Notes under the pieces: generated by a model
Told to the model about the DNA's origin: nothing
The model's input: the letters and a program-made list of their open reading frames with translations, nothing else
Database searches by the model: none
From: Parasphingopyxis sp.
GTDB taxonomy: Bacteria > Pseudomonadota > Alphaproteobacteria > Sphingomonadales > Sphingomonadaceae
Length of the DNA: 64,000 nt
Direction of reading: 5' to 3'
Assembly (NCBI RefSeq): GCF_028279465.1
Contig: NZ_JANQNS010000014.1
Location: 62,001 to 126,000, forward strand
In this document: piece after piece, positions 1 through 56,345 of the stretch
Position numbering within the stretch: position 1 is the stretch's first letter
Layout: every line of letters starts with the position of its first letter
Program-made: the position numbers and the translations under genes

Positions 1-24
1 GACCATTTATTATAATGTGTTTGG

Positions 25-56
25 GCCGCGTTTAGAAAACGCGGCTTTGTTTTTTG
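25..56 (+). terminator. Rho-independent terminator
   Basis: GCCGCGTTT (25-33) pairs perfectly with AAACGCGGC (37-45) across a 3-base loop and is followed by CTTTGTTTTTT. It would end a plus-strand transcript entering from left of the window. The remaining bases up to the stop codon of the reverse gene at 140 show nothing recognisable. Confidence 0.75.
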
Positions 57-139
57 GCGTGAAGCGTTCCATTGGCGTGACGAGTCGTTGGAATCGTCAT
101 TTATCCTGAGCGCCGAACCGGCTTATTGCTTCCCGTAGG

Positions 140-1066
140 TTACACTAATGATCGGCGTTTCCCGTCGCCCGTAACCCAAATATCTGCCAGCGGCCCATTC
201 GCCTCAAGCTCGGCTGTTGTCGTGTACCAGAACACGCCCTTAGGCGCGTCCGATACGACCCGGTCGCAAACCTCCCGCATTTTTGCGACCCGACCGCCCG
301 CGCCGTTGACCACAAACAGCACCCGGAAATATCTGAAGCCATACAGTTCAGAGTGTAGCTTGCGCTTAAAGGCGTCGGCATAGCAGCGGTGCTTTTGAGC
401 TATAGACGAGGCCAGACGATTAGCCTTGATGAAGTCCTCGCTACTGTTATCCCATTCAAGAAAGCACAGGCTTTGTTGCCGCCGACCGGATACGGTGCGG
501 CCAATAACAAAGGTGTAGTCAGGGTCGGTCGCCCGATCGATCACGCGGCCTTGCTGCTTAACCCTTGTTGGCAACCGATACGGCTTGAGTTCAGCCGGCC
601 AATCGCGCGACGCCAGCAATTCGTCTTGGTGCGTTAGATCGAGTTCGGCGCGCTCACTAATCGCCCGCTCAAAGTGGAGTACCGTATCGACGACGCCGAT
701 CTGGTGCACCAAGCGCTCAGCACTCTTGAGGTTATTAGCGGTGCGCCACCCCTTCCCTTTGGGAAACTCTGCACCGTCATGCTCAGCCAACCACTTCGCC
801 CCGCGCTGACCCAGCGCATGGACGGTATGTCGTTTCTTGGCGTAGCCGAAGGCCGCCCGCTGTATAGCGGGCCGGTCAAGATAGTCGTGTGCCATAAGTT
901 GGCGCAGCCGTTTATTGATCTTGTCACGGCTCTTAGAACCGCACAGCAATTGTGCCTGGTCGGTAGTGATGAAGCGGAAGCGGTGCACGGCTCTGATCCA
1001 GAGTTTATCACGCTCGGTTAGCCGGATGTTACCCGCGACTATCGGCTTTTGCAGTGCCCGGCTCAT
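140..1066 (-). CDS. Replication-relaxation family protein (winged-helix)
   Basis: This 308-residue protein resembles the replication-relaxation family found on plasmids and integrative conjugative elements. The N-terminal third (about residues 17-100) looks like a winged helix: RFRFITTDQAQLL, then a lysine/arginine-rich recognition segment and a basic wing with Y, K and R residues. The middle and C-terminal parts (FIKANRLASSIAQKHRCYAD, then FRVLFVVNG) suggest a small alpha/beta fold. Family members are linked to plasmid copy or replication control; DNA binding is inferred. The ATG overlaps the stop codon of an upstream remnant as ATGA, so it was once the downstream gene of an operon. It is cargo or backbone of cassette 1. 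Confidence 0.7.
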   Translation of the reverse strand: MSRALQKPIVAGNIRLTERDKLWIRAVHRFRFITTDQAQLLCGSKSRDKINKRLRQLMAHDYLDRPAIQRAAFGYAKKRHTVHALGQRGAKWLAEHDGAEFPKGKGWRTANNLKSAERLVHQIGVVDTVLHFERAISERAELDLTHQDELLASRDWPAELKPYRLPTRVKQQGRVIDRATDPDYTFVIGRTVSGRRQQSLCFLEWDNSSEDFIKANRLASSIAQKHRCYADAFKRKLHSELYGFRYFRVLFVVNGAGGRVAKMREVCDRVVSDAPKGVFWYTTTAELEANGPLADIWVTGDGKRRSLV

Positions 1067-1167
1067 GCCATGTCAGCCTCTAGGATATGGCCCAAACCGA
1101 AACAAGACCTCGCCCCTGCGTCCCGCAGAGCGCCGATTAGCTCGCGCCCGTTGGCGAGTGTTTCAGG
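1063..1167 (-). pseudogene. 3' remnant of an upstream operon gene
   Basis: Reading leftward on the minus strand, 34 open codons (ending H-I-L-E-A-D-M-A) follow an in-frame TAA at 1168-1170 and end in a TGA that overlaps the next gene's start as ATGA. No start codon with a ribosome binding site lies in the open stretch. The exact ATGA junction suggests the tail of a gene formerly coupled to the replication-relaxation gene. The DNA upstream (1168-1234) is unrelated-looking and leads into the HEPN-like gene's stop codon, so the 5' part seems deleted. The identity of the lost gene cannot be told. Confidence 0.4.
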
Positions 1168-1234
1168 TTATCTTGATAAAGTTTCGGACTACGGGTCGCT
1201 CTTCAAGACCGACTCTTGATAGAGAAACACAAAC

Positions 1235-2314
1235 CTACAGCTGTTCCACGTTGACGATATCGTCTTCGGTCAGGTGCGGCGTCTCCGTGCGATAGCCCGC
1301 GCGTTGCCGAACATCGCCCAATAGGTCGACGAGCCTCGCTACAGTTTCCCACGCATATTGAAGTGCGTCGATACTTTGGGAGACGATATTCTGATATTCT
1401 CGAATCGCAGCCTTGAACGCCCCAGCGTCGTCATAGTCGATCGACGAATCCAATATTTCCAAGATGCTACCATCATCGCCCAACAACGGATAATGCAGAG
1501 TGGGTATGTCTGGGATGTCACCAATATTTCGTTTCCGAGCTTCACAGAAGTGAAGGGCGTGACCGCGACCCACTGGGGCAACGTGAGTGATATGATTTCG
1601 GAGATCAGTTAGTTGCTTAATCCAGCCGCCATTTTGGCCTTCTGCAACGATTTCCGAAACCAACGGATCTTGGTTGTCGCGATTTCGCTTCAAAAAAGTT
1701 CCAAGCGTTCTAACTTCCTCGACTTCCCCTTGCACATCGCGCCAGACCAACTCAGCAATTAGGTCTCTCAAGGAGGCTGCGTCAGCTGCAAAAGCGTGAA
1801 TCGCAGCATCAATATTCCGAACAAAGCCGTTTTCGAAGAAGGTTCCGTTTGGGTCACCCGCTCCCAAATGCCATGCGCGCAGACACCCATTGTATTCTCC
1901 GCTGAGCTGGAAGATTCTAACTGCCAAAAGATCGACATAGGTCTTCGCTCGAGCCGCACCGTCTGCGATTTCGGGATTGCGGTCTTGAATTGCTGCGTGT
2001 CGCACATCAGCCCAAGCATGTCGTTCCAAGCGCATCGAAAACTGACCGCTCGGCGCGGCACACTGCCAATCCGGTGTATCGAGGCCTTGATAGCTGTGGT
2101 CGTTCACAAATTCGGCGCCGACGGTTTCAAGCTTTAGCGCGCGAAGCGCGGCGTATAGCTTGGCGTAGTTTGGCACAGGAAATTCGCAAAATTTGCAGTC
2201 TCTCCCGGCTTGAACGAAAACTTTGCCCTGCCGGTCATCCACTGCTCGCAGACCTCCCAAGAGGTGAACAATTCTTGGCGGCATTGCTGACTCATCCAAT
2301 TCAGTTAGTGCCAT
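1235..2314 (-). CDS. HEPN-like protein with an Rx4H motif
   Basis: I do not recognise a named family for this 359-residue protein. Residues 239-244 read R-N-H-I-T-H inside a predicted helix (LTDLRNHITHV). This matches the R-N-x3-H (Rx4-6H) active-site motif of HEPN ribonucleases found in toxins and phage-defence proteins, as in ApeA-type proteins. The N-terminal half has a CxxC (residues 40-43) and a mixed alpha/beta look; the rest is mostly helical. It is transcribed away from the PIN-domain gene at 2413, sharing a 98-bp divergent intergenic region. No strong Shine-Dalgarno precedes the ATG. RNase activity is inference from one motif plus context. Confidence 0.5.
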   Translation of the reverse strand: MALTELDESAMPPRIVHLLGGLRAVDDRQGKVFVQAGRDCKFCEFPVPNYAKLYAALRALKLETVGAEFVNDHSYQGLDTPDWQCAAPSGQFSMRLERHAWADVRHAAIQDRNPEIADGAARAKTYVDLLAVRIFQLSGEYNGCLRAWHLGAGDPNGTFFENGFVRNIDAAIHAFAADAASLRDLIAELVWRDVQGEVEEVRTLGTFLKRNRDNQDPLVSEIVAEGQNGGWIKQLTDLRNHITHVAPVGRGHALHFCEARKRNIGDIPDIPTLHYPLLGDDGSILEILDSSIDYDDAGAFKAAIREYQNIVSQSIDALQYAWETVARLVDLLGDVRQRAGYRTETPHLTEDDIVNVEQL

Positions 2315-2412
2315 TTTTGCAGTCTACTCAATGGTTCTGGCAATCGAAGTTTCATATCCTATTTGGTCTGATGACGAGACGGAAGTGAATTGGTCGGAAA
2401 CGGATTGCCAAA

Positions 2413-3936
2413 ATGCCTAGCGAAGAAACAGACCAAACCACGTTGGCTGTCATCGCCGACACCAATCTCTTTTTGGAGTGCCAACCACTGGACGAGTTGC
2501 CGTGGTCAGAGCTTGGCGTTGATCACGTTCGGATTATTGTAACTCGGGCAGCTCAGCGCGAGCTCGACAATCACAAGAAGAACCGAAATGGCCGGACATT
2601 CAAAAAGGCTCTTAAGGCAGTCCAGTTACTTCGAACTCTGGTTACTGACGATGTAGACGAGCTGGTTATTCAAAAAGAAACCCCGCGTGTAACGCTGTCT
2701 CTTGCTCCATTGTTGAAGCCGGTCGGAGAAATCGTAGACAGTCTTGATCTAGCCGTGCCCGACGACGTGATTGTTGGTTGTGTGCCGGCGTATGCGACTC
2801 AGAATCCCACAGAGTCGGTAGTCTTGCTCACACACGACAGTGGCCCAATGGCAACCGCCAAAGCACTGAACATCGAGTACAAAGCCATTCCGGATCATTG
2901 GCTTCTGCCACCGCAAAACGATCCGGTTGCGCGGGAAAACATCCGTCTTCGGGACGAACTGAAGACACTACAACGGCAAGAGCCAGATTTTTCACTCGTG
3001 GCAATCGACAAAAACGGCGAAACTATTGAAGGGCTTGAAGCATCGATTGAAGTCTACGAAGAGCTGAGTGAAACTGAAATCGAAGAGTTGATCGAACGGC
3101 TAAAGACTTTGCATCCGCGAGTCACAGATTACGGTTCGCCAGAAACAACCCCAAAACCTGAACTGCCGGTTTCCTTCGCACCCTTCAGCGTTCTCACATT
3201 TGAGCCGGCTGACCCCAAACAGGTTCGGGATTACAATGATCGGAAGTATCCAGAGTGGATCGATAAGACTCGCATCAGCCTTCGAAGGCTTCATAGTGAG
3301 CTAAATCGTCGCACTGAGCGTCCTGCAATAGGGTTTAAGGCGCAAAATCATGGCATCAGACCAGCAAAAGGTTGTCTGATTCAGTTTGATTTCAATGGTC
3401 CGATATTCGGTTGTCTTCCCAAATCTGAGGGCGATGATACCGACGAAGCAGCATCCGAGAAGCCGCTCAGGCTACCACGGCCCCCGACAGCGCCAAGCGG
3501 TCGCTGGGTATCTCAAGAGCGCGGCGCACGACAGGCGATTGACAACTTGTTGTCAGGGCTGTCGCACCAAGATGTGGCCAGGCAAATTGATCGGGCACTC
3601 TATGCCGACCAAGTCACCGATCATATTGGGCCGCTGCTGCCACACATGCCAAAACCTCATAACCCGGACGGATTTTACTGGAAAGACGTTAAGCCAATTT
3701 CTCCGCAGGACACGGTAGCGCTAACATGCGACAACTGGCGACACGGTATCGATCCTGAGTTCTTCGATTTTGTCCTGTATGCTGATGGTGACGATCCACA
3801 TGCTGAAGGAGCTGTGACCTGCGAAATACATGCAGAGAACGTCTCTTCGCCGGTCAAATTGACTGTTCCAGTAAGTCTGCATTTTGTGACAGTATCGACA
3901 TTCGATAGCGCAATCGAGCTAATTGAGCGCCGGTAG
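2413..3936 (+). CDS. PIN-domain protein, putative ribonuclease
   Basis: The first ~165 of 507 residues form a PIN domain: a beta strand into ADTN (D16, T17, N18), an acidic residue in AAQRELDNHKK (E50), VPDDVIVG (D117/D118) and a final strand LLTHDSG (D142). These are the usual metal-binding acids of PIN nucleases. A short coiled or helical linker follows (ELSETEIEELIERLK, about residues 217-231). The C-terminal ~270 residues are of unknown fold and rich in Pro and Asp, so the protein is far longer than VapC toxins (~130). No VapB-like antitoxin is adjacent. The membrane-protein gene 52 bp downstream probably shares the transcript; the HEPN-like gene is divergent. Confidence 0.7.
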   Translation: MPSEETDQTTLAVIADTNLFLECQPLDELPWSELGVDHVRIIVTRAAQRELDNHKKNRNGRTFKKALKAVQLLRTLVTDDVDELVIQKETPRVTLSLAPLLKPVGEIVDSLDLAVPDDVIVGCVPAYATQNPTESVVLLTHDSGPMATAKALNIEYKAIPDHWLLPPQNDPVARENIRLRDELKTLQRQEPDFSLVAIDKNGETIEGLEASIEVYEELSETEIEELIERLKTLHPRVTDYGSPETTPKPELPVSFAPFSVLTFEPADPKQVRDYNDRKYPEWIDKTRISLRRLHSELNRRTERPAIGFKAQNHGIRPAKGCLIQFDFNGPIFGCLPKSEGDDTDEAASEKPLRLPRPPTAPSGRWVSQERGARQAIDNLLSGLSHQDVARQIDRALYADQVTDHIGPLLPHMPKPHNPDGFYWKDVKPISPQDTVALTCDNWRHGIDPEFFDFVLYADGDDPHAEGAVTCEIHAENVSSPVKLTVPVSLHFVTVSTFDSAIELIERR

Positions 3937-3988
3937 TTAGCCCGCAACAAACCTAGTCACCGTAACGCCTCCCCAGTTTCCGCCAAGA

Positions 3989-4888
3989 TTGACAAAGGGG
4001 ACACAAACTCTGAACTATCACCAAGTGTCACAGTCACGGGATAGTAAACGAGGATCGCGCTGGCTCTCTTTTCTGTTCGGCCTTGGAGCCATCGGAGCGT
4101 TTGGGCTGGCTTGCTACTCAATTGTGCTGGATCGAACAGCGACCGCGGCAGTGGCGGCAGCGTTAAGTCTCGCGTTAATCGTTCTCGAAAAATTGCCGAT
4201 TCTCGAAAGCTTCAAAGCCTTTTCAATGGAAGCGCGCTTCAACCGCCGGATTGAGGAGTTCGATCGGTTGTTTAACGATCTCCAGTTTAGCTTCCGCGCT
4301 TCCGCAAGATTCCAGTTCGCGCATATGGCTTGGATGAACAGGCTTGGCAGTATGAGTTGGGAATCTAAGCGGGACATGATCGCCGATCTTGATGCAGTGC
4401 TCGAACGATTAGAGATCGACGCCGATCAAGCTACGGCATTGAAAGGGCCATTTCTTTCCCTTCTGGCCTTCGACCTCTTCAATGTGTTTGACTCCGTTGT
4501 CGCCTCGAGAATGCGCAAACACCAGGCTCTGGCCAACGAGGCGCTGTCCCAATATCACGCTGGAAAACCAATAGATCCCTCGGACGACGAGTATCAAAGA
4601 CTTCGAGGCGTTGCCCAAAGATACAGATTTCAAAACGTCGAATGGTCTAGCGACCCTTCGAACGACCCTCGCTTGGCCGATATGGCGACACTTACTCGTG
4701 ATCGGCTTCAAGATATGCCGCTGCCGGACGAGGAAAAAGAGAAAATTGAGGCTGTTCGTAGAGAGGTAGTGACACTTGCGAACGATTGTTGGGAACAAGG
4801 GACGATAACACCCGATGCCCAACAATATCTCGACAAATACCGTGGGCAAAAAATGGAGCGAACGACTGAACTTTTCGGCGACGAATAA
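3989..4888 (+). CDS. Two-helix membrane protein, unknown function
   Basis: This 299-residue protein has two close hydrophobic helices near the N terminus (about residues 25-45 and 49-67), then a ~230-residue soluble, mostly helical domain (cytoplasmic by the positive-inside pattern: Lys/Arg-rich before helix 1). The soluble part ends in a charged helix ending L-F-G-D-E. The start is uncertain: TTG at 3989 opens the frame, GTG at 4028 is an alternative, and neither has a good Shine-Dalgarno. It follows the PIN gene by 52 bp in the same direction. The layout resembles membrane partners in defence operons, but no family is recognised. Confidence 0.55.
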   Translation: MTKGTQTLNYHQVSQSRDSKRGSRWLSFLFGLGAIGAFGLACYSIVLDRTATAAVAAALSLALIVLEKLPILESFKAFSMEARFNRRIEEFDRLFNDLQFSFRASARFQFAHMAWMNRLGSMSWESKRDMIADLDAVLERLEIDADQATALKGPFLSLLAFDLFNVFDSVVASRMRKHQALANEALSQYHAGKPIDPSDDEYQRLRGVAQRYRFQNVEWSSDPSNDPRLADMATLTRDRLQDMPLPDEEKEKIEAVRREVVTLANDCWEQGTITPDAQQYLDKYRGQKMERTTELFGDE

Positions 4889-4913
4889 CCAATGGTGGCG
4901 CATCGAAGCCTCC

Positions 4914-5500
4914 CTTTGCCCGGCCGGGCAAAGACCGCCACGATGGCCTGCCATCGTGCACCGCCATAGGCGGTATCTGAACCCCTCACCATGATGAGGG
5001 GTTCGCGCACCGGCGATTAGCCGTGCCGCAAAACTCTCTCCAGAATTGTTGCCTGCCGCTTTGCCCCATGAGCGCTGAGCCGTCAGGCGAAGGAAATCAT
5101 GGCCCGGCAAATCGAGCGAGGCGACCAAACGGCCGCCGCCGGTGCGCCCTGCCCTAGCGCAATTCAGCTACCGTCATGGGGTGACGGAAGAACTGAATAG
5201 GCTAGGCGGACGTTTGGTCGCCTCGCGAGAGGCGGCAACAATTCTGGAAAACCTGTTTGTTTTCCGTAGGAAACCGAACAGGCTGGGGGGCGTTCCTAGG
5301 AACGACCTCTTCAAGACCCCCTACGGTAATAACCGTTGGGCTTCTATGCCGGGTAGTCTTGGACGGGTTGCATATCGTCTTCTGTGGATATTCACCGTCC
5401 AAAAATGACCGTCAACTTGCCCCTTACTTACACACTTTGTTTCACACTGTGTAAGTTGGATGATTTTAATCTCTTTATTTCAGATAGATGGAACAGGCCC
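4914..5500. other. Conserved structured non-coding right end of cassette 1
   Basis: No credible gene lies between 4889 and 5631. The block aligns by eye over its length with 8635-9227. In order it contains hairpins at 4914-4933, 4941-4956, 4961-4973 and around 4981-5001. Next is a long-range stem CCAGAATTGTTGCC (5040-5053) with GGCAACAATTCTGG (5234-5247). Nested inside is GAGGCGACCAAACG (5118-5131) with CGTTTGGTCGCCTC (5211-5224), and inside that a two-part hairpin (5162-5198) with loop TGGGG. GCCTC-GCGA-GAGGC (5220-5233) competes with the second stem. A CCTGTTTG/CGAACAGG hairpin and a GTTCCTAGGAAC palindrome follow. Several stems differ from the second copy yet still pair. Confidence 0.75.
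5426..5456. repeat. Inverted TTACACA repeat near att, possible integrase arm site
   Basis: ACTTACACA (5426-5434) and TGTGTAAGT (5448-5456) are perfect inverted repeats, with a degenerate TTCACAC copy between them. The repeat ends 44 bp before the tRNA-derived repeat, exactly the spacing seen in the second cassette. Tyrosine integrases bind short repeated arm sites beside the core; assigning that role here is inference. Confidence 0.5.
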
Positions 5501-5552
5501 TATCTGACTCTTAATCAGCGGGTCCCAGGTTCGAGCCTTGGTGCGCCCACCA
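5501..5552 (+). repeat. att site: 3' half of tRNA-Lys(CUU), copy 1
   Basis: The 52 bp hold the anticodon arm (CTGA-CTCTTAA-TCAG, anticodon CUU), variable loop, T arm and acceptor 3' strand with CCA. The bases upstream do not form a D arm or 5' acceptor, so it is not a tRNA gene. It differs from copy 2 at three positions. One is C to T in the T stem, giving a G-U pair; the others are in the acceptor strand and at the CCA edge. This is the duplicate expected when an integrase uses a tRNA 3' end as attB. Confidence 0.85.
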
Positions 5553-5631
5553 TTTTTCTTCCATATTTCATATATTTATCAAAATTGAACACACGTAGGA
5601 TAAATTGGACGTCACCGAGCGACGAAATTGA

Positions 5632-6036
5632 CTATCTTCGCACAAACCAGTCCAGAGCGGCGGGATTGACCCAGGTCATGTGTTTAAATTTTTTCTCTGA
5701 GTTTCTCGACACGGAGACTGTCTCGGTCCCGTCCGTGCAAAAGACCGCTCGATTATCAATCAAGAAGTATTTGAATTTTGACTTGTTGTTGCGGTAGTCA
5801 ACCGTGCCATCGTTTGTGACATTGTAGATAGTCAATTTGGTCGCCAGACCAACATGATCACTCTTCTCGTCGATTAATACGCGGTCACCAGTGATTGTTT
5901 GGCGTACGCCGTGAAATAGCCTCACTTTGAGGTCCGCTCCGTTCAACGCGGCGTCCCTCAAGTCGGACAATTCGCCATACGTCGAGTTTCCACTTGCGTC
6001 GTGCGCATAGATTCTTTCCCATGTCATGGCAGCCAT
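5632..6036 (-). CDS. Hypothetical 134-residue protein
   Basis: I do not recognise the family. The N terminus reads WERIYAHDASGN, then a GxLSDLRDAALNGADLKVR segment: a helix followed by a strand ending in a short N-G-A-D-x-K-V motif. The C-terminal half is strand-rich and polar, ending in WVNPAALDWFVRR. There is no signal peptide or membrane segment. It is transcribed toward the att repeat at 5501-5552, alone, and diverges from the metalloprotease pair. An AGAGAG purine run precedes ATG 6036; a second ATG at 6027 is possible. Local base composition is AT-rich, consistent with transfer. Confidence 0.55.
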   Translation of the reverse strand: MAAMTWERIYAHDASGNSTYGELSDLRDAALNGADLKVRLFHGVRQTITGDRVLIDEKSDHVGLATKLTIYNVTNDGTVDYRNNKSKFKYFLIDNRAVFCTDGTETVSVSRNSEKKFKHMTWVNPAALDWFVRR

Positions 6037-6376
6037 CTCTCTTTTTCAGTTATCGTTCGTCTTGAGTCTGCTCCGCCGTCGTCATTTTGGCTACCCCCAT
6101 TTGATCTTGTTCCGCATCTGATCTCATAATCGCGTGCCCTGATTCGCTGCGAAATCTGAGCTAAGTGATTGAGCTCCAATGTCAATCAATCGCTTAGAGA
6201 CTTCTCCCGCCACGGGCAGGACATCGAGACTGTCTGCGCGTGCGGCCAATCCGAATGTCCGCTTTCGGCCATACATCAAAGTCCGCTTTGCGCTCTACCC
6301 AGTCGTTCAATTGCGCTTCCAAGAGGGGATATCAAAGCCCGCTGGCTTATGCAGGATTGCGATCCATTTGCACTGC

Positions 6377-6406
6377 CTTGGCACATTCCGGTTAGATTGT
6401 GCCAAG
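6377..6406. promoter_or_regulatory. Inverted repeat upstream of the metalloprotease pair
   Basis: CTTGGCACA (6377-6385) and TGTGCCAAG (6398-6406) are perfect 9-bp inverted repeats separated by 12 bp, ending 42 bp before the ATG at 6449. The position fits an operator or a leader hairpin for the two-gene unit. In the rest of the 6037-6448 gap I see only a near-repeat of GTCCGCTTT (about 6259 and 6282) and no convincing gene. Confidence 0.45.
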
Positions 6407-6448
6407 AATCTTGCTATTTAGGCAGACATTGATGCTGAGGGATTTGTG

Positions 6449-6847
6449 ATGGAAGACAATTCATATGCGCTAATCGTCGAAGGTCTGGATAGGATTGACG
6501 CTCTCGAACTGGTTGAGGGCCTGGGCGAGGATCACTTCGCGGCCGAAACGCTGGGTGACGATGATCAGCGGCTAGGCGAACCTGGGACGATTGCTATCAT
6601 CGCCGCGATTGGCACCGTCGCGATGCCGCCGTTATTGGTCTGGCTGGCTAGACGCAAGAAGTGGTTCCGCTCCTCCGACGTCCAAGAAGTGACGCTGCCC
6701 GACGGAACTACATTTAGGCGGGTGGTCAAGATCTCGGTCGGCGCGGCCAAGCCGCCGAGCGCAGCCGAACTCAACGAACTCGCCGGTATGACCGGGACCT
6801 CCGCGTCGGATCTGGCTAAACTGCTGGCGCCAGCTGAGGACCAGTGA
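6449..6847 (+). CDS. Single-helix membrane protein, EACC1-like (tentative)
   Basis: This 132-residue protein has an acidic N-terminal domain (~residues 1-45) and a hydrophobic helix GTIAIIAAIGTVAMPPLLVW (about 48-67) followed by LARRKK. A small strand-rich segment then has the turn L-P-D-G-T. A helical tail ends it (AAELNELAGMTG). The order (small domain, helix, WL-basic stop, PDG hairpin) resembles effector-associated constant components of conflict systems, but that is a topology match only. ATG 6449 is chosen over GTG 6446 because GAGG at 6437-6440 is 8 bp upstream. Its stop overlaps the next start as GTGA, so the two are translationally coupled. Confidence 0.6.
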   Translation: MEDNSYALIVEGLDRIDALELVEGLGEDHFAAETLGDDDQRLGEPGTIAIIAAIGTVAMPPLLVWLARRKKWFRSSDVQEVTLPDGTTFRRVVKISVGAAKPPSAAELNELAGMTGTSASDLAKLLAPAEDQ

Positions 6848-8556
6848 CCCGCGCGAGCATTGATCCGCTCGCAAACCTCATTCGGCCGCGGCGGCTCGAC
6901 TTGCGGCACAACATCAGGGGTTTCATCGTTGGACCCTGGCCACAGGAGCACGCGCAGAGCTTCCTCCACGAGCTCACGCACCATTGGTGTTTCCATTCGC
7001 CGCTCGGCACCGTTCTGTCGCTCATCCGCGGCGAAGCGCTCGCGCATGTCTTCCATGACGAAGAAGGTCCGATCGACGACGCGGAGGCGTCCGAACTCTT
7101 CTTCGGCCTGGCAACCGTGGATTCGATCCTGCGCTTTCTGCGTCCCCTGTCAGAGGGCCTCGCGCTCTTCGCAGAATATGACATGAACCCTGGCGCTTCG
7201 CGCATCGCCACGACACCGATGACATGGGCGAGCCTGATGTTCGCGCCGGATCAGACCATGTTCAACATCAATGATCCCGCTGACGCAAAGGTACTGGCCG
7301 AGCGACTGGTCAACATGCGGCTCGCACGGACATCGCTTCGGCGAAAAATGGGTTTTCTGTCGCGCTCGTTCACGCCGCTCGATGATACATATTATGAAGG
7401 TTATCTGGTCGTCAAACGCATCTATTTCGACCTCCTGGCTCAGTGTGACCTGTTGGACGACACCGACCTCTTCCTAGGTTACCTCAGAGCTTACTTGTTC
7501 GAGGACCCCGGCCTCATCGCGATCCTCACGTCACAAGAGCCGCTAAACAAACTTCTGCTTCAGCTTTTGCTGCGATTTCGCCAACGGCTCGAAGTTTTGC
7601 GCAACGACGATTTCTCGGCCGATATCGCTGCGTTCAACAATGGGTGCGATAAGCCGCCTGGCTTTCGGCACGATTTCGCCATTCCCGGGATCAGGGCAAC
7701 GCAGACCGACATCGACAGCGCGCGTGCCGGACTTGCGCGCATGTTGACGCGACTCCACGACGACTCGAACTTGTCCGCGTCCCGCCGACAGTTTCTCGAT
7801 CTACGGCGCGGTTGGCTCGCGCGGCGTTCTATTGCAACGGTCCTATCAGAACCGGTGCTCGTCAAAATCGGCCCTAGCAGCGTGACGGTCTGGCCTGACC
7901 CACACGACGAAGAGCATTTTCTTGCTGTGATAGGCACGAACATCGACCATGGCCTGCCACAGTCGCCGGACCTCCACCCTGGCTGGTATTCGCTAGTTCT
8001 GCTCCCGCATGTGCCTACGATCGCTACGGTCGTCGGCGTTGGTAATACGGTGGTTGCGATAAGGTGGCGTTCAGAAGGGGAAGAGCCGGAACCGGGCTTA
8101 ACTCGCTGGCTATGCGATCCGATCAACACGGCACCTTATATCGAGCGTGAGGCTGAGGGCATCGGCAACTATCTGCGCGATTATTTTGAGAATGCGCCGC
8201 CATCGGCGCGCGAGGTTCTGGAGCGCTTCCATACCGCGGTCGATGCCGAATGGGGGGACCAGTGCCGCGCATTCCTACGTCGCTGGTCGCATCCTGCAAG
8301 CGACGCCGCTGCCGACGCACTTTTGCAGCCCGATCGCCTACGCGGCCTCTATCGGCGCGATGGACAGCTGTTCGAAACGGCGATTGCGCTCAGCATGTTG
8401 CGCAGGATGAATGTCGTCCTGCCATCGAATCAGGCAGTCTTAGCCCAGGAGGGTTGGGATGTCGGCATGGCGCTAATCCGCGCGATGGAGATATTTGAAG
8501 AGACCGGCCTGATGCTGCTACATAACGACGACGGTGTGCTCGAATGGGCTGTCTGA
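6844..8556 (+). CDS. HExxH zinc metalloprotease, putative conflict effector
   Basis: The 570-residue protein carries H-E-L-T-H (residues 42-46), the zinc-binding and catalytic motif of zincin metallopeptidases. About 60 residues on, EGLALFAE (104-111) supplies a glutamate suited to be the third ligand, as in gluzincins. There is no signal peptide or membrane helix, so it is probably cytosolic. The C-terminal ~400 residues have no recognised domain. It starts at GTG 6844 within the stop codon of the membrane-protein gene (GTGA). Pairing with a membrane protein, in a mobile cassette with no other function, suggests a membrane-triggered protease used in defence or competition. Protease motif strong; role inferred. 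Confidence 0.65.
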   Translation: MTRASIDPLANLIRPRRLDLRHNIRGFIVGPWPQEHAQSFLHELTHHWCFHSPLGTVLSLIRGEALAHVFHDEEGPIDDAEASELFFGLATVDSILRFLRPLSEGLALFAEYDMNPGASRIATTPMTWASLMFAPDQTMFNINDPADAKVLAERLVNMRLARTSLRRKMGFLSRSFTPLDDTYYEGYLVVKRIYFDLLAQCDLLDDTDLFLGYLRAYLFEDPGLIAILTSQEPLNKLLLQLLLRFRQRLEVLRNDDFSADIAAFNNGCDKPPGFRHDFAIPGIRATQTDIDSARAGLARMLTRLHDDSNLSASRRQFLDLRRGWLARRSIATVLSEPVLVKIGPSSVTVWPDPHDEEHFLAVIGTNIDHGLPQSPDLHPGWYSLVLLPHVPTIATVVGVGNTVVAIRWRSEGEEPEPGLTRWLCDPINTAPYIEREAEGIGNYLRDYFENAPPSAREVLERFHTAVDAEWGDQCRAFLRRWSHPASDAAADALLQPDRLRGLYRRDGQLFETAIALSMLRRMNVVLPSNQAVLAQEGWDVGMALIRAMEIFEETGLMLLHNDDGVLEWAV

Positions 8557-8634
8557 TACTTCACTGTTCTTTTCCGAAAGCCGTCCATCCGAAGTCGGCC
8601 AGTATCGGACATCGCGACGAACCGACAAATTCGG

Positions 8635-9227
8635 CCTTTGCCTTTGCGCAAAGTCCATCACGATGGCTTGCCATCGTGCGCCGCCTCCGGCGGGATCTGA
8701 ATCCCTCACCTTGAGTGAGGGGTTCGCGCACCGGCGATTAGCCAAGCGCAAAATACCGAAATTGTTGCCCGCCGCTTTGTCCCAGAGGAGCGGAGCCGTC
8801 AGGCGAACGGTCATATGGAAGACAAATCGAGTGAGGCGACCAAACGGCTTTCGCCGGTGCACCGCCGGTAAAGGCGTAATTCGATACCATAGTCATGGGG
8901 TGACTATGGTATCGAATAGGAGAAAGACGTTTGGTCGCCTCGCGAGAGGCGGCAACAATTTCGGGAAACCTGTTTGTTTTCTGTAGGAAAGCGAACAGGC
9001 TGGGGGTCGTTCTTAGGAACGACCCCTTAACGACCCCCTACGACCTCTCGCAGGGTCGGTTGTGGTCTGGCGACATTTGGACTCACAATAGAGTCAGCCC
9101 ACCGCATATCGAGCGCTATTTCCGGTCAGATTGAGCCAGAAATCGAGTCGAAACTTACACACTTTTTTACACACTGTGTAAGTCGGTTGTTTTTAATCAA
9201 GTCATTTCAAAAAGATATAGAAGGCGC
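8635..9227. other. Conserved structured non-coding right end of cassette 2
   Basis: This is the second copy of the block at 4914-5500; no gene lies in 8557-9349. The long-range stem is CCGAAATTGTTGCC (8756-8769) with GGCAACAATTTCGG (8951-8964), differing from copy 1 by two compensated base pairs. The next stem is GAGGCGACCAAACG (8833-8846) with CGTTTGGTCGCCTC (8928-8941). The inner hairpin is a perfect 17-bp stem (8879-8895 with 8901-8917) whose sequence is largely unlike copy 1 but whose TGGGG loop and closing TCA/TGA are identical. A hairpin around 9003-9026 (GGGGTCGTTC/GAACGACCCC) could also terminate transcription. Confidence 0.75.
9153..9183. repeat. Inverted TTACACA repeat near att, copy 2
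   Basis: ACTTACACA (9153-9161) and TGTGTAAGT (9175-9183) are perfect inverted repeats, with another TTACACAC between them in direct orientation. The repeat lies 44 bp before the tRNA-derived repeat, the same spacing as at 5426-5456. A set of three short repeats in this position fits integrase arm binding, by inference. Confidence 0.5.
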
Positions 9228-9279
9228 TATCTGACTCTTAATCAGCGGGTCCCAGGTTCGAGCCCTGGTGCGTCCACCA
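9228..9279 (+). repeat. att site: 3' half of tRNA-Lys(CUU), copy 2 (island/chromosome junction)
   Basis: The anticodon arm, T arm (perfect CCAGG/CCTGG stem) and CCA are present but the 5' half of the tRNA is missing. This copy marks the right boundary of the island: ordinary chromosomal genes begin 71 bp later. Confidence 0.85.
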
Positions 9280-9349
9280 CTCCCCTCTCCGCAGCTCCGG
9301 CATAGCACGCGATATTGTGCCACCGGCGAGCAGCGCATAAAAAGCGCGG

Positions 9350-9772
9350 ATGTTCGCCCAGATTGCCATCGGTTCGATCCTGATAACTTTGACTATTCTT
9401 GTCACCGCCGGGTTTATCGGCGTCGCGATTGCGGCCGGGCACCGCATTGGCGATCGATTGCTGAAAGGCCACCGGATGCTGCGGCTCGTCGCCTTTATTA
9501 CCGCAATGACGTTGTGGATGGTCGCGGCGCTGAGCATCGCCGTCTGGCTGTGGGCGGTTGCTTTCATGCTTATCGGCGTGTTCAAAACACCCGAGGGCGC
9601 GCTCTATTTCTCGGCCGTATCCTTCACGACGCTCGGCTTCGGAGATGTATTGCTGGATAAACCGTGGCGCCTTCTATCCGGTTTCATCGCGGCCAACGGG
9701 CTGATCCTGTTCAGCCTTATCACCGCCTTCCTGATCGAGGCCGTCCGCCGCGTCCATCAGGCGCCGGAATAG
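9350..9772 (+). CDS. Small potassium-channel-type membrane protein
   Basis: This 140-residue inner-membrane protein has about three hydrophobic helices (residues 4-28, 46-76 and 108-130). A pore-loop signature TTLGFGD (93-99) sits between the last two, and GFGD is a known variant of the K+ selectivity filter. There is no RCK/TrkA-N domain, so gating would differ from the larger channel at 19460. It is the first chromosomal gene after the island. The start is ATG 9350; a Shine-Dalgarno is weak. Confidence 0.75.
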   Translation: MFAQIAIGSILITLTILVTAGFIGVAIAAGHRIGDRLLKGHRMLRLVAFITAMTLWMVAALSIAVWLWAVAFMLIGVFKTPEGALYFSAVSFTTLGFGDVLLDKPWRLLSGFIAANGLILFSLITAFLIEAVRRVHQAPE

Positions 9773-9782
9773 GGGGCGCAGC

Positions 9783-10373
9783 CTAGCTTCGCGCGGGTCG
9801 CAGCATCGGTGTAACGACGGGCGATGTTCCGCGCTGTATCTCGCCCATCACCGCGAAACCGTGGCGCTCGTAAAGCGAAATATTGCGCGGATTGGACGAT
9901 TCCAGATAGGCGGGCAGCCCATCCTCATCGACGCGGCGCAGCGCATGTTTCATTAGCATGCCACCGAGCCCGCGCCCCAACCATGCAGGGTCAGCCGCAA
10001 TCAACGGTAGATACCAGCACGGTTCGTCATGCGGGTGATACGCCTCCATCTCCTCGAACACCGCAACAACCTCGTCGAGCATGTCGGGCGCTATATTCTC
10101 GCCCATCAACTGTTCCATCCGCTCATCGTCGGGACTTTCTCCAGGCGGCAACCACAAGGCAACCGCATTGCCCTCGTCCGCTACATAGGCAGATCCCGCC
10201 GCGATCGCACCGCCGCCGAAAGCATCGATGATTTCCGGAAAAACGCGCAAATAAGACACCGCATCGGGCAACATCCAGCGCACAAGTGGATCGTTGGCGA
10301 AACCGAGTGTCATAGTGTCAATTGCCCGTGTGCGATCATCGTCTCCCGCGACGCGAATCTCTGGCATTGTCAC
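9783..10373 (-). CDS. GNAT family N-acetyltransferase
   Basis: The 196-residue protein has a GNAT fold: ending strand WYLPLIAADPAW, then the acetyl-CoA binding loop L-G-R-G-L-G-G (R/QxxGxG/A) leading into a helix. The C terminus has the usual YLESSNPRNISLYERHGF segment, which places an Asn and a Tyr near the active site. It transfers an acetyl group from acetyl-CoA to an unknown amine. It faces the channel gene tail to tail and may share a transcript with the TauE gene upstream of it. Confidence 0.8.
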   Translation of the reverse strand: MTMPEIRVAGDDDRTRAIDTMTLGFANDPLVRWMLPDAVSYLRVFPEIIDAFGGGAIAAGSAYVADEGNAVALWLPPGESPDDERMEQLMGENIAPDMLDEVVAVFEEMEAYHPHDEPCWYLPLIAADPAWLGRGLGGMLMKHALRRVDEDGLPAYLESSNPRNISLYERHGFAVMGEIQRGTSPVVTPMLRPARS

Positions 10374-15038: not shown

Positions 15039-16181
15039 ATGTCTGTCAGAATGGCTCTAGCAAAGTTATCGGCCTGCGCATGCGGAGGGGCTATCGTCGG
15101 CGGCGGGGCGGTGCATGTCGCCGAAGCGCCCGCAGGCGGTCCGGCTGAAATCCGCACCGAACAGCCGCGCATGGCGGCGCGCAGCATTGGCAACCGCCCG
15201 CGCGTGCATCGCAAGGCGCGCCAGGTGCGCACGATCACGCGGACGACGACATGCGCGCCGGCGCCCACGGTCGTCAGCGTAACGAACCAGGTCGCAGCTC
15301 CTGCTCCAGCGGTGTTTGATATTCCGCCGCCCGCGCCGATCATCAACGAGATTCCGGCTTTTGGGGGCGGCGGTGATGTCGGCCTGATCGGCGGCGGTGG
15401 CTTCATCGGCGGAGGCGGCTTTGTCGGCGGCGGTTTCTTCGGCGGCGGCGGTTCGTCCGGCGGCGGCGGGTTCTTCGTTCGCGAAGGCGATATCGTTATC
15501 AAGAATGATAATAGCGGCTCCACCTCAACGGGTGGCAGCTCAACCTCGACCGGCGGCAGTTCCACATCGACTGGCGGTAGTTCGACCTCCACCGGCGGGA
15601 TCAGCTCGACCACGTCGACCGGCGGGATCAGCAGCACGTCGACCTCTTCGACAGGGGGTTCGTCGAGTTCGTCCAGCTCGAGTTCTTCGAGCAGCTCTTC
15701 CAGTTCGTCCAGCTCGAGCTCAAGCTCGTCGGGCGGCGGATCGAATGGCAGCACCGGCTCGACCGGCGGCCATCCGGGCAGCACCGGCAGCACGGGCGGT
15801 GGCTCCACAGGATCGAGTGGCTCTTCCGGTTCGAGCGGTTCGTCTGGTTCCAGCGGGTCTTCGGGGTCGTCTGGTTCAAGCAGCTCCAGCAGTTCCTCAT
15901 CGTCGAGCAGCAGCTCTTCAAGTTCGGGCGGTTCGTCTTCGTCCACATCTTCGGGTGCGACGGGCGGCTCCAGCAGCTTCGGTAGCAGCGGCTCGTCAAG
16001 CAGCAGCTCTTCTTCGAGTTCCAGCTCGTCCAGCAGCTCCTCCTCGTCTTCGAGCGGAGGCAGCAGTTCGACAGGCGGCACCGAAGTGCCCGCTCCGCCG
16101 ATGCTCCTGCTCTTTGGCGGCGGCGTGGCAGCACTCGTTGCCCGCAGGCGTTGGAAGAAAAAGAAAGACGCTGCGGCTTAG
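15039..16181 (+). CDS. Ser/Gly-rich repetitive surface protein with PEP-CTERM-like tail
   Basis: The 380 residues begin with a signal-like segment. A basic region ([19 protein letters not shown]) and a Gly-rich run of GGGGF repeats (~110-145) follow. Then come tandem S-T-S-T-G-G repeats, long poly-Ser tracts and G-S-S/S-G-S repeats (~155-350). The tail is V-P-A-P-P, a hydrophobic helix and RRRWKKKK. That tail is a PEP-CTERM-like sorting signal (VPxP variant), cut and transferred to the envelope by an exosortase; no exosortase is in the window. Ser tracts mix TCG, AGC, TCC and TCT codons, which limits slippage. The role is probably as a glycosylated surface or matrix protein (inference). Confidence 0.7.
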
Positions 16182-56268: not shown

Positions 56269-56345
56269 TGGTGCGCCCGACAGGATTCGAACCTGTGGCC
56301 CCCGGATTAGGAATCCGATGCTCTATCCGACTGAGCTACGGGCGC
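56269..56345 (-). tRNA. tRNA-Arg (anticodon CCU)
   Basis: On the minus strand the 77-nt gene starts GCGCCCG, has a D arm (GCTC...GAGC), the anticodon loop TTCCTAA in a TCGGA/TCCGG stem (anticodon CCU), the T arm ACAGG/CCTGT with TTCGAAT, and ends CGGGCGC-A-CCA with an encoded CCA. A CCCAAAGT/ACTTTGGG palindrome lies just downstream (56225-56260). Confidence 0.95.

Follow-up and report, generated by a model that had tools for sequence, protein, structure and literature searches.

INTRODUCTION

Integrative mobilizable elements (IMEs) and plasmids that have a VirD4 of their own carry MobC relaxases, and cis-mobilizable elements (CIMEs) are defined by the attachment (att) sites that they retain, as these classes are presented in PMC5704250 and PMC7563491. 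The family PF13814 is listed as MobC (PMC5357655). Relaxases of the MOBC type are described as related to PD-(D/E)XK nucleases, and TraX of pAD1 as binding ~70–120 bp from nic, the nick site (PMC12857230). According to the first of these sources, the origin of transfer (oriT) and nic have been identified for only some canonical IMEs (PMC5704250). Among integrative conjugative elements (ICEs), ICEBs1 has a hairpin single-strand origin (sso), and the primases of RSF1010/R1162 recognise their own origin; the same account states that, as of 2015, virtually nothing was known on the conversion of ICE single-stranded DNA (ssDNA) to the double-stranded form (PMC4595007). SGI1 is reported to require a small RNA (sRNA) beside its oriT (PMC9299015). 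Here we describe a structured non-coding element that occurs twice, at 4914–5500 and 8635–9227, in a 64,000-nt stretch of the 3.3-Mb genome of Parasphingopyxis sp. (bases 62001–126000 of contig C20, NZ_JANQNS010000014.1), which we call the window.

The two blocks are a real, selected and rare structured cis element at the transfer and integration end of a family of MOBC-type islands; one copy ends an island and the second belongs to a CIME-like satellite. We read them, with a probability of roughly 0.5, as a cis-acting single-strand origin of these integrative mobilizable islands, serving as oriT, as a start site for the second strand, or as both.

Like MOBC IMEs (the putative Streptococcus IMEs, and the CloDF13-like plasmids), the island has a PF13814 relaxase, a VirD4-like ATPase, an integrase and a defined gene target. 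Unlike them, it has two VirD4-like ATPases, a covarying hairpin region of ~430 nt, alphaproteobacterial hosts and, in its relatives, a DnaG-like primase. The satellite, a 3.7-kb cassette, resembles a CIME in being flanked by att sites, in tandem with the island and without recognisable int or transfer genes; CIMEs are described by the att sites left to them, whereas the cassette has kept the structured site as well and might for that reason also be mobilized in trans. As in ICEBs1 sso1, several hairpins are predicted in ssDNA, and RSF1010/R1162 give a precedent for recognition of an origin by the plasmid's own primase, but the block is longer than either of these origins, has a multi-branched core and has no blastn match in plasmid or phage collections. 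The block may also be compared with the sgm-sRNA beside the SGI1 oriT, as a structured non-coding part of what is probably an IME mobilization region; SGI1, however, uses MpsA/MpsB where the window island has a PF13814 relaxase.

RESULTS

A shared fold in two non-coding blocks

The blocks are homologous and non-coding, and as direct repeats they align in register at a spacing of 3715–3727. A preliminary description of this DNA had proposed a set of nested stems common to both, and these stems are present. The DNA fold of 4914–5340 (copy 1) reaches −141.4 kcal/mol against a shuffle mean of −78.6 (z −13.9), and that of 8640–9045 (copy 2) −131.7 kcal/mol against −67.2 (z −14.7), with 0 of 100 shuffles as good in either case. 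When positions 1–10000 of the window were scanned in 200-nt windows (100-nt steps, 20 shuffles each), z < −5 was found in four, all inside the two blocks.

The hairpins stand back to back across ~430 nt of the block, and all parts are given for the + strand. Copy 1 begins with a 5′ hairpin series at 4914–5030 (CTTTGCCC/GGGCAAAG, CACGATGG/CCATCGTG, ACCGCC/GGCGGT and ACCCCTCA/TGAGGGGT), followed by a covarying core at 5039–5249 and by downstream hairpins at 5250–5345 predicted by DNA folding. The core comprises an outer stem, a side hairpin, a long inner stem (GAGGCGACCAAACG/CGTTTGGTCGCCTC) and a variable inner hairpin. In copy 2 the core lies at 8755–8966, as judged by fold and covariation, between a 5′ series at 8635–8748 and downstream hairpins at 8967–9060, both from DNA folding. 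Our covariance model R1 matches the two cores at C20:67039–67249 and C20:70755–70966. Both copies have an exact outer stem (5039–5053/5234–5248 and 8756–8769/8951–8964). As first described, the inner hairpin of copy 2 (8879–8895/8901–8917) is a perfect 17-bp stem and that of copy 1 a two-part stem, and TCA-TGGGG-TGA tops both. At the Rfam gathering threshold the only match in the window is a tRNA at 56272–56345; no family is called at the blocks, in keeping with the earlier statement that no named family fits.

Compensatory changes

The core was aligned over 227 columns and five rows (alignment A2): the two window copies, genome G209, and loci L151 and L152; genome G160 was omitted, its core being identical to that of L151. 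In this alignment 95.0% of cells pair. Changes on both sides that keep the pair occur in 21 of the 73 core pairs, compared with 7.3 (sd 2.1) in shuffles, and none of 500 shuffles reaches this number; the covariation score is 0.288 versus 0.145, and further pair types number 34 versus 28.1 (3 of 500 shuffles). Sliding the partners by 1–3 columns leaves only 1 to 6 two-sided pairs instead of 21, a control that is biased toward the structure because the structure was derived from the same five sequences. In a comparison of just copy 1 with copy 2, both partners differ in 11 pairs, 10 of which remain standard, while one-sided changes keep a standard pair in two cases and lose it in two. The outer-stem differences noted in the preliminary description are indeed compensated, A-U to G-C and G-C to A-U. 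These compensatory changes, above both controls, support its view that the fold is under selection.

Letters of the inner hairpin differ between the copies, yet it folds with z of −5.4 (copy 1), −10.6 (copy 2), −7.3 (G209) and −4.0 (L151). The five sequences share the arms GAGGCGACC/GGTCGCCTC and TTGTTGCC/GGCAACAA without any change, which would fit arms that are recognised by their sequence as well. The alternative pairing proposed earlier as a hint of a switch, a GCCTC-GCGA-GAGGC mini-hairpin in competition with the long stem, occurs in all five; L152 has GTGA as its loop, and in G209 the closing pair is G-T.

Tandem integration at a tRNA-Lys gene

A feature absent from the preliminary description is that each block is followed, a few bases past its end, by a ~49-bp copy of the tRNA-Lys(CTT) 3′ end on the + strand (att 1 at 5504–5552, att 2 at 9231–9279). 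The blocks are therefore the right ends of two tandem elements. The intact tRNA-Lys(CTT) gene is at L005:820–895, 15.6 kb left of the window start, ~21 kb from att 1 and 25 kb from att 2. What had been called a duplicated element is thus homologous in its two copies, but it is the same end region of two tandemly integrated elements and not a duplication as such.

The island measures 21.2 kb from the tRNA-Lys(CTT) gene to att 1, in the order tRNA, tyrosine integrase, VirD4-like ATPases, serine recombinase, Shedu-type protein, PF13814 relaxase, cargo, block 1 and att 1. The integrase (L005:1011–2144), which adjoins the tRNA gene, is of the tyrosine type; its own score is below the Pfam cut-offs, and the 78% identical integrase of G160 scores above that of PF00589. 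Two island proteins match TrwB_AAD_bind (1.7e-8 and 2.2e-6, both above the curated cut-off), so the island has VirD4-type coupling ATPases of its own. The relaxase gene, at 143–1066 on the − strand, matches PF13814 Replic_Relax (E 3e-13, above the curated cut-off), which the literature assigns to the MOBC type; its product is 71% identical to the relaxase of G209, 72% to that of G160 and 32% to that of L152, and D183, E204, D206 and K225 are invariant in four relaxase sequences. Among 16 proteins of the island scanned with Pfam, a subset of its open reading frames (ORFs), there was neither a type IV secretion system pore protein nor ParA/ParB. The primase and the 442-amino-acid ATPase of its relatives were not found in the island by tblastn; the relaxase, the integrase and the other VirD4-like ATPase are retained.

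The cassette (5553–9279, + strand) is 3727 bp long with an att site at both ends, matched at 5508–5552 and 9235–9279. It has no recognisable integrase, relaxase or primase, and the island integrase, relaxase and ATPases and the primase have no tblastn match within it.

Pairs of repeats that are likely integrase arm sites lie on the + strand at 5428–5446 (TTACACA-N5-TTTCACA) and 9155–9173 (TTACACA-N5-TTACACA), and arm-like repeats are found ~55–80 bp ahead of att in both copies and in G209, G160 and L151. A similar pair stands beside int at the left end of the island (L005:960) and in G160; none is evident at the left end of the cassette. Over the first 45 bp after att, the cassette agrees with the island in 31/50 columns and the island with G160 in 32/47, while the cassette and G160 agree in 26/51, as low as unrelated pairs (host-flank pairs give 23–26/50).

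The element beside mobilization genes in other genomes

A DNA search of 397 genomes of the family matched seven, four of them by 28–36 nt only; apart from its own genome, G160 and G209 have the core. A pattern scan of a species-genome collection gave five loci; two are those of G209 and G160, and L151 and L152, the latter in a metagenome-assembled genome of Tepidamorphaceae (G951), were added. A pattern match in Chloroflexota (L149) was inspected and set aside as chance. From block to att, L151 agrees with G160 in 833/843 columns.

In all four relatives the block either adjoins or overlaps the 3′ end of a gene for a DnaG-like primase of 352–354 amino acids, recognised as CHC2/Toprim by Pfam in G209 and G160 and by alignment to the G209 primase in L151 (74% identical) and L152 (43%). 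Relaxase and coupling-type ATPase genes lie upstream of the block in each, with two extra ORFs separating ATPase from relaxase in L152. The first ~60 nt of the window blocks correspond to the 3′ coding end of the primase gene in G209, G160 and L151; the frame is broken in the window copies, and the first hairpins, coding in these three relatives, are nonetheless kept. The suspicion that the blocks might be remnants of a protein gene is thus borne out just marginally, for this primase tail. By eye, the primase gene of the relatives closes with a terminator-like hairpin and its T run, just 5′ of the core. The proposed tie to mobile cassettes is supported and sharpened, to the right end of tRNA-gene islands and, in the relatives, to the neighbourhood of a relaxase, coupling ATPase and primase module.

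G209, G160 and L151 share the tRNA 3′-end string at which they end; in G160 it belongs to tRNA-Lys(TTT). Two complete islands could be traced. That of G160 spans ~25 kb at tRNA-Lys(TTT), with an integrase 78%, a VirD4-like ATPase 68% and a relaxase 72% identical to those of the window island; it also carries a ParA/ParB pair (L199:11255–12849), which suggests a plasmid-like stage. That of G951 spans ~19 kb at tRNA-Phe(GAA), with an integrase of the same type beside the tRNA gene. At 19 kb from that intact gene stands a copy of the tRNA end, 48 nt long and 98% identical; arm repeats precede this copy by ~60–90 bp, and the att site is ~1.8 kb right of the block with a 390-amino-acid ORF between. 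One integrase type appears with changing targets (L198:10049–10163, L208:1473–2787), namely tRNA-Phe(GAA) in G951, tRNA-Lys(TTT) in G160 and tRNA-Lys(CTT) in the window genome.

In a small test, among 174 family genomes, the relaxase was found in two, its own genome and G160, both with the block. In tandem islands at the same tRNA-Lys of G005 and G009, tblastn at E 1e-6 matched none of relaxase, integrase and primase, and z stayed above −5 in every 200-nt window, so that the fold is not a companion of this integration site as such. These islands (L202, L204) differ in cargo, and L202:977–2302 encodes an integrase that by eye is apparently unrelated.

The element is rare in the samples searched. 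Model R1 found it in 1 of 385 genomes of a class sample (its own), in 2 of 32 of the genus of G209, in 1 of 297 of an order sample of G951 and in 3 of 3 of a targeted set, all previously known; in the large samples few first-look candidates were scored per genome, so weak relatives may be lost. A genus search matched 9 of 10 genomes, all except its own in the tRNA part only. With the tRNA part included, BLASTN matched 23 plasmid records, and the best 20 of the 23 lie entirely within that part; without it there was no match in plasmids (three queries) or phages (one query), and hence no likeness to a known sso, single-strand initiation site (ssi) or oriT there. In viral contigs two longer patterns had no match, a 14-base pattern was too short to inform, and a primase profile gave 18 distant relatives. 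The same profile matched 0 of 296 genomes of the order at E 1e-50, which shows little. The relaxase had no match in plasmids, and among the matches listed no publication names the element in its title or abstract opening.

Cargo and neighbouring features

The cassette cargo consists of ORFs of 134 amino acids (5632–6036, − strand), 133 amino acids (6446–6847, + strand) and 570 amino acids (6844–8556, + strand; HELTHH, HExxH-like), none with a family in Pfam, PADLOC or NCBIfam; the last two are a possible defence pair. In the island, the Shedu-type protein (SduA_C, L005:12794–14020) adjoins a 422-amino-acid protein with a weak ZorA-like match, and a large serine recombinase (L005:11041–12783) within this tyrosine-integrase island may mark a nested element. 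Window positions 2413–3936 encode a 507-amino-acid PIN_4-domain protein near proteins of 359 and 299 amino acids; this cargo, between relaxase and block, occupies the place of the coupling-type ATPase and primase in the relatives. A strongly folded intergenic spot at L005:9401–9600, with a 13-bp stem CATGACCACGAGG, lies 5′ of a gene for a 387-amino-acid VirD4-like protein. This spot (z −7.1) and L005:16401–16600 (z −5.7) were rejected as further copies of the block: longer folds gave z of −3.6 and −4.65, and by eye they are separate simple hairpins. At 15039–16181 the window has a 380-amino-acid ORF of serine/glycine repeats whose C-terminus shows a hydrophobic stretch and then a basic end; it is putatively PEP-CTERM-like.

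DISCUSSION

The origin reading is built on the covarying fold, its site near the att end, the adjoining relaxase, ATPase and primase genes of the relatives and the tandem tRNA-Lys att sites; from these we infer an origin function, a single-stranded state and mobilization in trans or in cis. The integrase would excise the island from the tRNA gene, and the PF13814 relaxase would then start single-strand processing at the block, between the primase position and the attP end. The exposed + strand may fold into a chain of hairpins to be recognised by the relaxase and coupling ATPases, as oriT, and/or by the primase, as second-strand start (sso/ssi), with the arm repeats beside att presumably serving the integrase. 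The cassette would be a non-autonomous relative, with attachment ends and block only, moved by the enzymes of its partner. The window island, without primase yet with relaxase, VirD4-like ATPase and a well-kept block, leans to oriT; the position behind a primase gene in four of four relatives leans to a second-strand start, and we keep both.

Folding energies do not decide between RNA and DNA. A block that acts as ssDNA is favoured, indirectly, by its company of relaxase, coupling-type ATPase and primase genes, by back-to-back hairpins over ~430 nt and by the terminator-like hairpin with T run before the core in relatives. An RNA gene of the island, for mobilization or control in the manner of the SGI1 sgm-sRNA, seems unlikely to us. 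The covarying fold would be very stable as RNA too, the exceptions to Watson-Crick pairing are of the G-U type on the + strand (13 G-T versus 5 A-C, unchanged when pairs are predicted on the − strand), and an sRNA adjoining oriT is on record for SGI1 (PMC9299015). Such a gene, however, would have its 5′ hairpins within a coding end in three relatives and its core just behind the hairpin and T run that, by eye, close the primase gene; a simple scan of 4600–9600, a weak test, found no sigma-70-like promoter inside the blocks and one at 6101–6130, and the long row of hairpins resembles a single-strand origin region more.

ParA and ParB in the G160 island and the adjoining primase of the relatives could instead point to a replication origin of the excised circle, of double-strand or theta type and bound by a ParB- or Rep-like protein, rather than a transfer origin. 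We hold this to be quite improbable: no ParA/ParB was seen in the island proteins scanned, no iteron array is among 20 of the 23 repeat families listed, and a conserved fold speaks for a single-stranded state. It is more doubtful still that the block belongs to attP as an accessory, either spacing the site structurally or enhancing recombination by the integrase. The distance to the arm repeats and to att is indeed short in G209, G160, L151 and the two window copies, but in G951 it is ~1.8 kb, with an ORF between, and the G005 and G009 islands, though without a match to the window integrase, use the same tRNA-Lys without such a fold. Hardly any weight falls on a chance fold or a functionless gene or insertion sequence remnant; the shared primase end of ~60 nt fits one, but the pair survives in 10 of the 11 cases where both sides differ between the copies, and 21 pairs covary where shuffles give 7.3.

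Several points weigh against the single-strand origin of MOBC-type islands. As DNA, the + strand has the better fold in four of five sequences, with a margin of 5 to 15 kcal/mol, and the − strand in L151, with one of 0.8. The G-T excess of 13:5 has a one-sided binomial probability of ~0.05 under an independence of cells that does not hold, and is suggestive only. The shuffles ignore the relatedness of the sequences, of which just five are distinct; in L152 the inner hairpin is weak (z −1.0) and the 5′ hairpins are not seen. The ATPases of G209 and G160 (411 and 442 amino acids) match no Pfam family, and the coupling-type label comes from 23–27% identity to the VirD4-like proteins of the window island and from annotated plasmid matches of the L152 ATPase. 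The island relaxase has no NCBIfam match. As to a PD-(D/E)XK fold, its structure model is poor (pLDDT 60), with no solved relative; Foldseek gave no match at E 0.001, and the structures listed, at weak E, are of several kinds, winged-helix regulators and a small number of restriction enzymes among them. Co-occurrence of relaxase and block is not independent, since four of the five relaxase places were located via the block. Finally, a genome-wide search at E 1e-20 found no element-type primase in the window genome, where a site that served a primase alone would be left without its enzyme.

More tentatively, the blocks may stand for a new class of large multi-branched ssDNA origin, in which relaxase start and primase-dependent second-strand start share one covarying structure, the sole mobilization signal kept by cargo satellites that ride on a parent island. 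The mapping of transfer origins in IMEs is poor, as is that of second-strand origins in ICEs. A site whose covariation can be measured offers a structural signature by which islands and satellites that have no recognisable transfer gene can be found, and the 3.7-kb cassette, small and naturally occurring, would serve as a construct for studying the cis requirements of a satellite.

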